Shown: in pieces, positions 18,523 to 22,862 of the stretch
Layout: every line of letters begins with the position of its first letter
How positions within the stretch are numbered: the first letter of the stretch is position 1
Source: Chordicoccus furentiruminis
GTDB taxonomy: Bacteria > Bacillota > Clostridia > Lachnospirales > Lachnospiraceae
Assembly: GCF_019355395.1 (NCBI RefSeq)
Contig: NZ_CP048829.1
Coordinates: 1,054,001 to 1,118,000, forward strand
Reading direction: 5' to 3'
DNA: 64,000 nucleotides
Translations under genes and position numbers: made by a program
The notes under the pieces: model-generated
The model's input: only the letters and a program-made list of their open reading frames with translations
The model's database searches: none
What the model was told of the DNA's origin: nothing

Positions 18523-19935
18523 ATGAATTATACACATACTGAGTCCGATGGACAACTGGCATTCTCTGAAAACAGATATACTTTTTTAAGCATCCCCTCC
18601 CGGCTGGAAGGCTTTAATAATTCTGACACAAGCGTACACCGGGCAGCTTCCGGCCGCGAAGTGTTGTGCTTTAACGGCAAGCTCGATCTGGCGGATGCTG
18701 ACCGCAGATGTCCAAAGTGTGGAAGCCGTATGCACATCAACGGTCACCGGGATCTTACGCTCCGGCATCTTTGCTTTGGCGGAAGCCTCAGTGCGATCCA
18801 TTTTGACCGCGTGCAGCTCATCTGCAAATGCGGACATTCCCATATGCAGTCTGTTCCGTTCAAAGCAGACGGCCATCAGATATCTGTGGAACTGTACCAG
18901 TATACCAGGGATCTGTTGGCACTTGGCACTTACACGCTCAAGCAGGTAGCTGAGATCACCGGGCTCGGAAAGAACACGGTCAAAGCCTTAGACCTTAAGC
19001 GCCTGAAGGAGCTCTATACCATCGACGGCACGAAACTGATCAGACCGGAGCAGCCGGCAAAAATGCTTGCCATTGATGAGTTCAAGCTCCACAACGGCCA
19101 CCGCTATGCCACCCACATCATAGATCTTGATACCGGCCATATCCTCTGGATCTCCCATGGGAAGAAAAAGCAGGTGGTCTATGACTTCATCGACCATGTC
19201 GGCCTGGAATGGATGGACTCTGTCGAGGCCGTCGCCTGCGACATGAACTCCGATTTCCAGGAGGCTTTTGAGGAAAAATGCCCCTGGATACAGCCGGTGT
19301 TCGATTACTTCCACATCGTAAAGAACTTCAACGACAAGGTGGTCAGTGAAGTCCGCAAGGACGAGCAGCGCCGCCTGTATGAGGAAGGCCTTATGGAGGA
19401 GGCAAGGGCTTTAAAAAAGACCCGTTACATCCTGATGTCAAGTCGATCAACGCTTCAGGCGAAAGATGCGCAAGCCAGGACAGGTGAGCCGATCAGCCGG
19501 TCCGGTTCCATCTTTCCCAAGGAAGAGTACGTCCGGAAAGAGGGTTATGAAGCAAGATATGACGAACTTCTCAGTCAGAACAAGCTTCTGTTCACGCTTG
19601 ATCTGATTAAGGAGCGTCTGTCTCTTTCCTACACCCGCACTGATGAAGCCCGTATGGCGGATGACATCACCTGGATCATGGATACCTGCAGTGCATCCGG
19701 AAACAGTCATCTTCAGTGGTTCGGAAGACTCCTTGGAAACCACTTTGAGGGCATCATAGCCCATGCAACTTATAAAATCTCCTCTGGCAAGATGGAGGGC
19801 ATCAACAACAAGATCAAAGTCTTACGGCGACAGGCCTACGGACTTCCGGATGACGATTATTTCTTCCTCAGGCTGTTTGACGCCAGCAGGAAGGGTTATA
19901 TTCGCAACCCCTTATCCCATAAGATTTGTGATTGA
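18523..19935 (+). CDS. ISL3-family transposase
   Basis: This 470-residue DDE transposase starts with a zinc-ribbon region (RRCPKCGSRMHINGHR, then LICKCGHSHMQ), followed by a helix-turn-helix (LKQVAEITGLGKNTVK). The catalytic core has AIDEFKL (first Asp), ACDMNSDFQEAF (second Asp) and SSGKMEGINNKIKVLRRQAYG (Glu region). It is intact with no frameshift. The stop codon lies inside the right inverted repeat. Lower GC than the neighbouring host genes is visible. Confidence 0.96.
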   Translation: MNYTHTESDGQLAFSENRYTFLSIPSRLEGFNNSDTSVHRAASGREVLCFNGKLDLADADRRCPKCGSRMHINGHRDLTLRHLCFGGSLSAIHFDRVQLICKCGHSHMQSVPFKADGHQISVELYQYTRDLLALGTYTLKQVAEITGLGKNTVKALDLKRLKELYTIDGTKLIRPEQPAKMLAIDEFKLHNGHRYATHIIDLDTGHILWISHGKKKQVVYDFIDHVGLEWMDSVEAVACDMNSDFQEAFEEKCPWIQPVFDYFHIVKNFNDKVVSEVRKDEQRRLYEEGLMEEARALKKTRYILMSSRSTLQAKDAQARTGEPISRSGSIFPKEEYVRKEGYEARYDELLSQNKLLFTLDLIKERLSLSYTRTDEARMADDITWIMDTCSASGNSHLQWFGRLLGNHFEGIIAHATYKISSGKMEGINNKIKVLRRQAYGLPDDDYFFLRLFDASRKGYIRNPLSHKICD

Positions 19936-20749: not shown

Positions 20750-21613
20750 TCAGTCCGCCGCCTCTCCGCCGTCGATTTCCTCGCGGTAATTGCCGAGGAA
20801 ACGGAACTCGGGACAGTCCGCCTTCAGCGAGTCAAGAATCCCCTGCACCTTCGGATCCCTCACGGAGCCTTCGATATCAATATAGAAGCGGAACTCAAAA
20901 TCCCGTCCTGGGATCGGCGCGCTCTCGATCTTCCAGAGGTTGATGTGTTCCCGGGCGAAACGGTCCAGCACGCCGGCGAGTGCGCCCGGCCGGTGCGGAA
21001 GGGAAAGGATCAGCGAGATCCGGTCCGCGTCCCCGCTCACCCGGGGTTCCTTCGCGATGCAGAGGAAACGGGTGTAGTTGTGATCGCTGTCCGCGATCCG
21101 GCGCTTCAGCACCTCAAGACCGTAGAGGTCCGCGCACTCCGGAGAGGAGATGGCCGCGATGCCCGGTTCTTCGGATCCGGCCACCATCCGGGCCGCCACC
21201 GCGGTGTTGAGACAGGGCACCTGTTTCACGTGCTCGCCGAGCGAGTGAAGAAACGCCGCGCACTGACCCAGCGCCTGCTCATGGGAGCAGACCGCGGTCA
21301 GATCCTTCAGCCGGGTGCCCGGCTTCGCCAGCAGCTGATGCCGGATTCTCAGACGGTAGCCGCGGACGATGGAGATGTCCTGCCTTCCCAGTATCTGATA
21401 GACCTGCTTCACGGATCCGTAGGTATTGTTCTCGATGGGGAGAAGCCCGAAGTCGCAGAGATCCTCTCTCACCGCCCTCGCGACGGCGTCGAAATTCCGA
21501 AAGTACAAGAAGCTCCCCTCCGGAAACAGCCGTTCGGCCGCGATCTGCGAATAGGCGCCCCGGATACCCTGACAGGCGATCACAAGTCCTCTTCCCCGGT
21601 TCGTTTCTTCCAT
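20750..21613 (-). CDS. pheA: Prephenate dehydratase
   Basis: This 287-residue protein converts prephenate to phenylpyruvate, the committed step to phenylalanine. The catalytic PDT domain (1-180) shows GIRGAYSQIAAERLFP, LPIENNTYGSV, SHEQALGQC and the NYTRFL motif with the essential Thr. A C-terminal ACT domain (about 200-275: ISLILSLPHRPGALAGVLD, INLWKIESAPIPGRDFEFRFYIDIEG) is the usual phenylalanine feedback site. No chorismate mutase domain is fused. It lies 18 bp after aroF on the same strand, under the shared Phe leader at 22655-22862. Confidence 0.96.
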   Translation of the reverse strand: MEETNRGRGLVIACQGIRGAYSQIAAERLFPEGSFLYFRNFDAVARAVREDLCDFGLLPIENNTYGSVKQVYQILGRQDISIVRGYRLRIRHQLLAKPGTRLKDLTAVCSHEQALGQCAAFLHSLGEHVKQVPCLNTAVAARMVAGSEEPGIAAISSPECADLYGLEVLKRRIADSDHNYTRFLCIAKEPRVSGDADRISLILSLPHRPGALAGVLDRFAREHINLWKIESAPIPGRDFEFRFYIDIEGSVRDPKVQGILDSLKADCPEFRFLGNYREEIDGGEAAD

Positions 21614-21631: not shown

Positions 21632-22636
21632 TCAGTCCGCGAGCGCCGCCCGGATTTTTCCGAGCCGCCGCGCCAGCCGCTCAAACGCGTCCGGCGTGAT
21701 CGACTGCGGCCCGTCGCATCTTGCGTGAGCCGGATCATTGTGCACCTCAATGATGAGCCCGTCGGCGCCGGCCGCCACAGCCGCCTGCGCCATCGAGGGA
21801 ACCAGCGCGGACCGTCCGGTGGCATGGCTCGGATCGATGATCACCGGGAGATGGGACAGCGTCTTGAGCGACGGGATGCAGGCAAGGTCGAGGGTGTTTC
21901 TCGTATAAGTCTCGAACGTCCGGATCCCCCGCTCGCAGAGGATCACGTTGGGATTGCCCCCGGCGAGAATGTACTCCGCGCTCATCAGCAGATCCTGATA
22001 GCTGGCGGCCATCCCTCTCTTTAGGAGAACCGGCTTTCTCGTTCTCCCGAGCGCCTTCAGCAGAGAGAAATTCTGCATGTTCCGTGCGCCGACCTGAAGG
22101 ATATCAATGTCCTCGAACAGCGGAAGCTGGCTCGCGTCCATGATCTCCGTGCAGATCGGGAGGCCGGTGGCCTCTCTCGCCTTCAGCAGCAGCCGGATGC
22201 CTTCCGCCTCCAGTCCCTGAAAGGAGTAGGGCGAGGTGCGGGGCTTGAAGGCGCCGCCCCGGAGGACCGTCGCCCCGGCCGCCTTCACCGCCTTTGCGAT
22301 GCCGACGATCTGCTCCTCGGACTCCACGGAGCAGGGTCCGGCGATCAGCGTGAGCGTGCCGCCCCCGATCACGGCATCTCCGACCCGGATCACCGTATCG
22401 GAGGGATGAAACTTGCGGTTTGCATTTTTATATGGCTCCTGAACCCGCTTCACATCCTCGACGATATCGAGCGCCGAGATCAGGTCCATGTCGATGGAAG
22501 ACGTGTCGCCGATGAGGCCGAGAATCGTCTGGTGCTGCCCCACGGTGGGATGGACCTCGATATGGCGTTCCTTCAGCCACGACAGCAGATGATCGAGCTG
22601 GGCCCTGTCCGGATGTTCCTTCAGAATGACGATCAT
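21632..22636 (-). CDS. aroF: 3-deoxy-7-phosphoheptulonate (DAHP) synthase
   Basis: This 334-residue protein condenses phosphoenolpyruvate and erythrose-4-phosphate, the first step of the shikimate pathway. It is the AroAbeta/Thermotoga-like type: residues 1-70 form a ferredoxin-like regulatory domain (MIVILKEHPDRAQLD), then the KDSA/DAHPS barrel with LIAGPCSVES, LRGGAFKPRTSPYSFQG, VGARNMQN, LLKRGM, ILCERGIRTFE and IIDPSHATG. The metal-binding Cys (AGPCS), His and Glu are present. ATG 22634-22636 follows GGGAGG. It is the first structural gene after a Phe-rich leader peptide and terminator. Confidence 0.96.
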   Translation of the reverse strand: MIVILKEHPDRAQLDHLLSWLKERHIEVHPTVGQHQTILGLIGDTSSIDMDLISALDIVEDVKRVQEPYKNANRKFHPSDTVIRVGDAVIGGGTLTLIAGPCSVESEEQIVGIAKAVKAAGATVLRGGAFKPRTSPYSFQGLEAEGIRLLLKAREATGLPICTEIMDASQLPLFEDIDILQVGARNMQNFSLLKALGRTRKPVLLKRGMAASYQDLLMSAEYILAGGNPNVILCERGIRTFETYTRNTLDLACIPSLKTLSHLPVIIDPSHATGRSALVPSMAQAAVAAGADGLIIEVHNDPAHARCDGPQSITPDAFERLARRLGKIRAALAD

Positions 22637-22654
22637 GTCTTACCTCCCTGACAT

Positions 22655-22688
22655 AAAAAAGATCCCGCGGCCGGCTGACCTCGGGATC
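22655..22688 (-). terminator. Attenuator terminator of aroF-pheA
   Basis: On the minus strand GATCCCG pairs with CGGGATC (plus-strand positions 22682-22688 and 22661-22667), followed by TTTTTT (22655-22660). It ends 18 bp upstream of the aroF start codon. An upstream segment GGAGATC can pair with GATCCC (one bulge) to form an antiterminator. Confidence 0.88.
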
Positions 22689-22721
22689 GGATGCTTTATG
22701 AATGATCTCCTGCGATTCTGG

Positions 22722-22805
22722 TCACGCCGACAAAACCTTACCCTTCGTAAAGGTAAAGCCCGCAAACCAGAAAAAGCCGAATGCAGAATGAGCGGAGATC
22801 TTCAT
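22722..22805 (-). CDS. Phe-rich leader peptide of the aroF-pheA attenuator
   Basis: A 27-codon ORF starts at ATG 22803-22805 with GGAGG 7 bases upstream. Residues 9-19 read FGFFWFAGFTF: six Phe and one Trp in eleven codons. It ends at TGA 22722-22724, followed 34 bases later by a terminator hairpin. TTCTGGT inside codons 11-14 is complementary to ACCAGAA just after the stop (the 1:2 pairing), which overlaps the segment able to pair with the terminator's 5' arm. Stalling at Phe codons would therefore favour antitermination. Role inferred by analogy with pheL. Confidence 0.87.
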   Translation of the reverse strand: MKISAHSAFGFFWFAGFTFTKGKVLSA

Positions 22806-22833
22806 GTGTTTCCTCCAGAAATTTGTCTTCTCA

Positions 22834-22862
22834 AACTTAGCACGCGCTCTCCCTGCTGTCAA
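22834..22862 (-). promoter_or_regulatory. Promoter of the aroF-pheA leader transcript
   Basis: Minus strand TTGACA (22857-22862) and TAAGTT (22834-22839) are 17 bp apart; the start point would be about 20 bases before the leader peptide ATG. Confidence 0.65.

Follow-up and report, generated by a model that had tools for sequence, protein, structure and literature searches.

The aroF-pheA operon of Chordicoccus furentiruminis is most likely preceded by a transcription attenuator that senses the charging of tRNA-Phe through the translating ribosome, and from the conservation and covariation of its parts we put the probability of this reading at roughly 90%. The locus was analyzed within a 64 kb stretch (hereafter the window, positions 1054001-1118000) of a genome that consists of a single 3.27 Mb contig, and all the elements discussed below lie on the minus strand, in the order promoter, leader ORF, terminator, aroF, pheA. 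The aroF gene (21632..22636) encodes a DAHP synthase of the PRK08673 type (NCBIfam NF006421, 479 bits against a cut-off of 335), and the best-scoring named relatives of the protein include Clostridia, e.g., Oscillibacter valericigenes (69% identity). The pheA gene (20750..21613) is assigned as prephenate dehydratase by profile matches: it scores over the cut-off of PF00800, and its best score against prephenate dehydratase models, 214 bits, is under the cut-offs of those models. Past the pheA end of the operon, an ORF at 18523-19935 resembles, by eye, an ISL3-type transposase.

The region upstream of aroF combines a leader ORF that has a ribosome-binding site and is rich in codons for the operon product, an intrinsic terminator ahead of the first structural gene, and two mutually exclusive pairings (1:2 and 2:3), which are the hallmarks of an attenuator. 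The promoter, as read from the sequence (22834..22862), consists of TTGACA (22862-22857), a 17-nt spacer and TAAGTT (22839-22834). The ribosome-binding site GGAGG (22812..22816) lies 6 nt 5' of the ATG (at 22805) of a leader ORF of 27 codons plus stop (MKISAHSAFGFFWFAGFTFTKGKVLSA, 22722..22805), with six Phe codons at positions 9, 11, 12, 14, 17 and 19 and a Trp codon at position 13. The terminator (22655..22688), delineated by the fold and by 3:4 covariation, is a hairpin at 22688-22661 followed by T6 at 22660-22655, and 18 nt separate T6 from the aroF ATG at 22636. These parts had been listed in an earlier note on this DNA, together with the complementary segments TTCTGGT/ACCAGAA, and all of them are found where that note had placed them.

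Within the transcript, segment 1 (TTCTGGTTTGCGGGC, 22758..22772; supported by the minimum free energy fold and by covariation) is the arm of the 1:2 hairpin that carries Phe codons, and segment 2 is the 3' arm of the same hairpin (ending in TGACCAGAA, 22716..22731; fold and covariation), which extends across the stop codon. The upper part of this hairpin, CTTTACC (22758-22752)/GGTAAGG (22742-22736), is located within the ORF (22736..22758) and is supported by covariation. In the alternative 2:3 pairing, the core consists of the 5' strand GGC-TGACC (22720..22728), which includes the leader stop codon, and of segment 3, the 3' strand GGTCAGCC (22673..22680), which belongs to the 5' arm and loop of the terminator. 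In addition, the fold and covariation indicate that the start region of the leader (ATGAAGATCTCC, 22794..22805) pairs with a segment downstream of the stop codon.

For the leader (22805-22655), the predicted fold has an energy of -61.6 kcal/mol (z -4.29), a value that none of 200 shuffles attained, and the terminator folds at -18.2 kcal/mol. A simple strict consensus scan of the window calls neither a promoter nor a terminator at the leader; TAAGTT matches TATAAT in 3 of 6 positions, the terminator stem carries internal mismatches, and the promoter score of a single sequence is equalled by up to 28% of the shuffled upstream regions (8% for the window). In 18 of 21 leaders from the same genus, TTGACA occurs without mismatch and is separated by 16-17 nt from the best -10 element, and it is on such conservation that the predicted promoter and terminator rest.

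A protein search of 42 genomes of the window's genus yields AroF-like matches in 32, some of them partial or weak, and 30 loci were read. In 21 of these, aroF is preceded by a Phe-rich leader, each with a terminator-like hairpin (one of the 21, L112, was counted by eye, its Phe count being under the minimum of the filter); at the remaining nine the leader is absent, and aroF in some of them seems to lie close behind another gene. The pheA gene is found downstream of aroF in 28 of the 30 loci. Two loci differ in detail: L113 (genome G053) has kept the promoter and the terminator without an intact leader ORF being seen, perhaps a decayed attenuator, and L003 (genome G006) has about 270 nt of extra sequence between the attenuator terminator and aroF. 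In an alignment of the leaders anchored on the upper stem, four positions are predominantly Phe (21, 19, 19 and 18 of the 21 sequences, respectively), and the peptide core FFFAFxGFTF is kept. The leaders contain 147 Phe codons altogether (100 TTT and 47 TTC), a content that could be somewhat inflated by U-rich pairing constraints.

R1, a covariance model trained on 20 of these leaders, identifies, in the 42 genomes of the genus and under strict filters, those same 20, each in a different genome, and one additional match, in G010, which is discussed below. Among the loci from the GTDB collection, R1 has a match immediately 5' of aroF in 17 of 80 at E <= 0.01, with the best value, 3e-10, in Oscillibacter; therefore, the element extends outside the window's genus.

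The pairings were assessed with a swap test, in which the duplex energy of a segment with its own partner is compared with the energies for partners from other species over 5000 permutations, in all 21 leaders and in a dereplicated set of 18. With composition controlled and phylogeny controlled in part, the own partners in the dereplicated set outperform the swapped ones in every permutation (0/5000) for the 1:2 hairpin (mean -11.2 against -8.8 kcal/mol), its upper stem (-6.5 against -4.9), the 2:3 core (-13.5 against -10.8) and the 3:4 terminator (-25.1 against -15.6), and the same four pairings likewise beat 5000 of 5000 permutations in all 21 leaders. The control pairings 1:3, 2:4, 2b:4 and 1:2b are not significant in the dereplicated set (3277, 2368, 2227 and 1078 of 5000, respectively; 572 and 579 of 5000 for the last two in all 21 leaders). 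The changes are apparent in the alignment: in the upper stem, TACC/GGTA is replaced by TGCC/GGCA, and the 2:3 pairing takes the form TGACC/GGTCA in the window, TTGACT/AGTCAA in L012, GGTTGGCTG/CAGCCGACC in L023 and GAATTGGCT/GGCCGATT in L018. The earlier note had suggested that an attenuator with Phe as its signal should show both covariation of the 1:2, 2:3 and 3:4 pairings and conservation of the Phe codons and the terminator in orthologous leaders, and the findings in the genus support this reading on both counts.

The predicted antiterminator that is conserved across the leaders is the stop-codon segment together with the 5' arm of the terminator (TGACC/GGTCA). The note had instead proposed GGAGATC pairing with GATCCC. 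Both strands are indeed present in the window and could lengthen the 2:3 helix (the L002 duplex of both pieces has -17.0 kcal/mol), but the relatives show no covariation of this pairing: for the segment comprising the next 22 nt, the duplex with its own terminator arm is not more stable than the duplexes with swapped arms (-7.1 and -7.4 kcal/mol; 3744 of 5000). Instead, GGAGATC (22704..22710) is perfectly complementary to GATCTCC (22800-22794) in leader codons 2-4, and the class of helices formed by the start region covaries (0/5000 in the swap test), even if such a helix is not strong in every leader (as little as -5.2 kcal/mol in L003). We therefore rejected GGAGATC:GATCCC as the antiterminator, a role that it is quite unlikely to have, and consider GGAGATC to be the post-stop strand of a helix that closes the start region.

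The stop codon is inside the 2:3 core or at most 4 nt upstream of it in 16 of the 21 leaders, so that segment 2 would in most cases be covered by a ribosome that has completed the peptide; in the other five, it is 11-15 nt past the end of the core, and masking would be brought about by a ribosome passing over segment 2 rather than resting on it. At least five Phe codons are located upstream of the 2:3 core with a clearance of 12 nt in all 21 leaders.

From this arrangement we infer the following course of events. When Phe is ample, the ribosome would reach the leader stop codon inside segment 2, which would thereby be masked, so that the 3:4 terminator forms and transcription ends before aroF. 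When Phe is scarce, the ribosome would stall within the Phe codons and open the 1:2 hairpin; GGC-TGACC of segment 2 would then pair with segment 3, the terminator would be blocked, and aroF-pheA would be transcribed. If the leader is not translated, both the terminator and the 1:2 hairpin would form, which makes off the predicted default state. The helix between the start region and the post-stop segment might shut off the start site once a first ribosome has passed, and so limit later translation of the leader.

The signal appears to be Phe rather than Phe and Trp jointly. The window leader has TGG at codon 13, and Trp occurs in some relatives too, which would fit joint sensing; however, the aligned position is occupied by Trp in 2 and by Ala in 9 of the 21 leaders, and the product of the operon is Phe, so that joint sensing is unlikely and, because the Trp codon is not conserved, Phe is the predicted signal. 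The conserved core FFFAFxGFTF might also be taken to mean that the ORF encodes a functional small protein and is conserved for reasons unrelated to attenuation. This is highly unlikely, given that what is conserved is the Phe codons and the RNA pairing, with alternative pairings that covary, and that the Tyr and Phe content of the leaders tracks the downstream gene. Furthermore, a profile search with the window peptide and three relatives finds no NCBIfam match and, in Pfam, a single match, for one relative and below the cut-off.

A T-box, a riboswitch or a terminator controlled by a protein would account for termination before aroF by other means, and a T-box-like motif is indeed found before aroF in a different family of the same order, by pattern match only. 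We regard such control as extremely unlikely here, since an Rfam search detects no meaningful match over the leader at either gathering or permissive thresholds: the six permissive matches all score far under the gathering scores of their families, and the T-box model RF00230 has no match. T-boxes are detectable by the same search, which finds one in L090, where it and the aroF of that locus are on opposite strands. The absence of a T-box motif reported in the note is thus borne out for the leader. In the locus with the T-box-like motif (L022 in G027), the motif upstream of aroF is GGGTGGTACCGCG, and no leader peptide was found.

The Phe-reading attenuator of the window belongs to a broader pattern. 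We sampled 185 aroF loci (30 from the genus, 80 from the GTDB collection and 75 from samples of the order and the class), in collections that overlap and are skewed to AroF proteins resembling the query. A loose filter finds an aromatic-rich upstream ORF at 137 of the 185 loci; a nearly identical filter accepts 34 of 550 shuffles and 7 of 110 reverse complements, a background of about 6%. The strict filter, which demands a leader ORF, a motif resembling a ribosome-binding site and a terminator, is passed by 123 of 183 aroF regions and by none of 366 shuffles or 183 reverse complements; after dereplication of AroF at 97% identity, 117 of 177 regions pass; with the genus loci set aside, the count is 99 of 149. 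The earlier note had placed Phe leaders mainly in Gammaproteobacteria, with T-boxes or proteins as the usual regulators in Firmicutes; at the sampled aroF loci of Clostridia, however, such leaders are not exceptional, and the leader-peptide architecture is common there rather than an oddity.

The codons of these leaders tend to correspond to the operon's second gene, as far as can be judged from the sequences. In the leader core, the mean Tyr/(Phe+Tyr) fraction is 0.51 before aroF-tyrA (n=77) and 0.13 before aroF-pheA (n=27). When single-label clades of the AroF tree are counted, the values are 0.52 (38 tyrA clades) and 0.27 (6 pheA clades; one-sided Mann-Whitney p 0.0015), and with dereplicated strict-filter leaders only, 0.50 (28 tyrA clades) and 0.25 (5 pheA clades; p 0.0045). 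The Phe-dominated aroF-pheA leaders fall into separate clades, within the window's genus and within the family f69 (L148, L150, L153). Counter-cases are the single-member pheA clades L075, L111 and L199, with Tyr fractions of 0.33, 0.33 and 0.5, and some tyrA clades, in which the fraction is as low as 0.17. Given this tendency, the leaders could serve as a hint of the purpose of an operon that is obtained from sequence alone.

The sole R1 match away from aroF is the one in G010 (E 3.4e-4), upstream of a gene that we denote paaK, for phenylacetate-CoA ligase (TIGR02155, 519 bits, under the cut-off of 646), and that is followed, by eye, by a gene with an ACT domain and then by one resembling trpB; the leader peptide is MTAHRNNFFGFTFGWWLRQHVS. 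We collected 100 paaK upstream regions (30 from the genus, 30 from the class sample and 40 chosen among the further matches listed). Of the 98 that were long enough, six pass the strict filter, compared with 0 of 196 shuffles and 0 of 98 reverse complements. One of the six, L291, was discarded as Leu-rich with a weak hairpin (-8.3), and an apparent leader before paaK in L257 was taken to be the terminator region belonging to the preceding gene. The five leaders that we count (5/98) come from four families: L213 (G010) and L232 (G001) from the window's genus, L265 (G092), L289 (G146) and L313 (G103). In each, a Phe-codon leader and a terminator are found ahead of paaK and an ACT-domain gene, and the leader is Phe-rich with at most one Tyr (that of G010 also has two Trp). 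The aroF-tyrA leaders of G092 and G103 (L157, L165) are instead Tyr-rich or mixed. G001 and G146 belong to different families, and their paaK leaders can be aligned (73% over 89 nt), with the 2:3 helix changed on both sides (GGTTAAT/ATTAACC vs GGTCGAT/ATCGACC); the 2:3 pairing is weak in the paaK leaders of G010 and G092 (-9.6 and -9.8 kcal/mol, respectively). Within 500 nt upstream of paaK in L265, two tandem Phe-rich ORFs are seen by eye, with a hairpin after each.

Under the strict filter, no such leader is found in the other 92 paaK regions or, as judged, in L291. Likewise, 20 regions from the genus contain no leader before paaK or the preceding iorA-iorB (among these, L328 ends short of the iorA start and L332 holds about 200 nt before iorA). 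In nine members of the genus, paaK follows likely iorA-iorB genes (by eye), with no leader seen there, and in G006 and G007, matches to 2-oxoacid oxidoreductase adjoin paaK. The genome search finds no aroF or pheA match in G001 and G010, where chorismate synthase is present; these assemblies are fragmented, and since aroF and pheA are neighbors, one assembly gap could remove both. In G018, G047, G049 and G057 from the same genus, there are also no aroF or pheA matches, and paaK is present without a leader.

We give about even odds to the possibility that, in some Clostridia, Phe-codon attenuation controls paaK and its ACT-domain neighbor, with the ligase running in the biosynthetic direction, to Phe. 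The argument for this direction is that a starvation-induced switch makes little sense on a degradation pathway, so that a Phe-starvation switch on paaK would favor biosynthesis in the species that carry such leaders. If so, the PaaK ligase and a 2-oxoacid:ferredoxin oxidoreductase would constitute a route from phenylacetate to Phe, and leader codons could reveal the direction of a pathway from sequence alone. According to a 2026 study (PMC13285125), an AMP-forming arylacetate-CoA ligase encoded beside IOR in Bacteroides may serve biosynthesis rather than degradation; the same study cites evidence that the IOR of B. thetaiotaomicron takes part in the conversion of Phe to phenylacetate. The formation of Phe from phenylacetate, in the context of the rumen, is cited in a passage of PMC7356843. 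The paaK leaders bear on a question that PMC13285125 raises for Bacteroides, whether in gut anaerobes an arylacetate-CoA ligase encoded next to IOR works in the synthesis or in the breakdown of aromatic amino acids.

Ribosome-mediated attenuation is a textbook mechanism. In the pheL-pheA attenuator of Enterobacteria (RF01859), a leader peptide with Phe codons, the 1:2, 2:3 and 3:4 alternatives and a terminator precede the pheA operon. The window element has the Phe leader peptide, the three alternative pairings and the terminator in common with it, and differs in that aroF comes first, the stop codon is inside segment 2 and a helix closes the start region. The Phe_leader covariance model RF01859 has no match in the window or in the whole genome; among 14 control genomes, it matches those of E. 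coli and Lactococcus lactis, and only one of these matches exceeds the cut-off. Thus, the covarying Phe attenuator predicted on aroF-pheA in Clostridia falls outside the Rfam models. The T-box leaders (RF00230) of Firmicutes also sense tRNA charging and control terminators of amino acid genes, but a T-box binds tRNA directly, without a leader peptide, whereas the window element is predicted to use a leader ORF.

The closest printed precedent, and the one close precedent we have, is uORFC-13-1 upstream of aroF in Acholeplasma (PMC8632094), which is known from Acholeplasma and environmental sequences only (24 representatives, with at least one Phe residue). As compared by description, it has in common with the window element a Phe-containing uORF before aroF, a possible promoter, a ribosome-binding site and an adjoining intrinsic terminator. 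A survey of five genomes including Clostridium novyi (PMC6429828) contains two candidate uORFs with Phe and Tyr at genes of shikimate metabolism, which are alike as far as its figure legend goes; the passages at hand from that paper give neither a mechanism nor a match of codons to operon for these uORFs. Passages of PMC11109978, PMC1262725 and PMC1173090 do not describe this element, and those of the last paper report, for other bacteria, tyrA operons with putative attenuators. In a search of mainly the open-access literature, partly through excerpts, we recognized no paper describing a Phe attenuator upstream of aroF-pheA in Clostridia. The window element is thus a new case of a known type of attenuator; the leads most worth pursuing are the trend for leader codons to fit the operon and the candidate attenuators of paaK.
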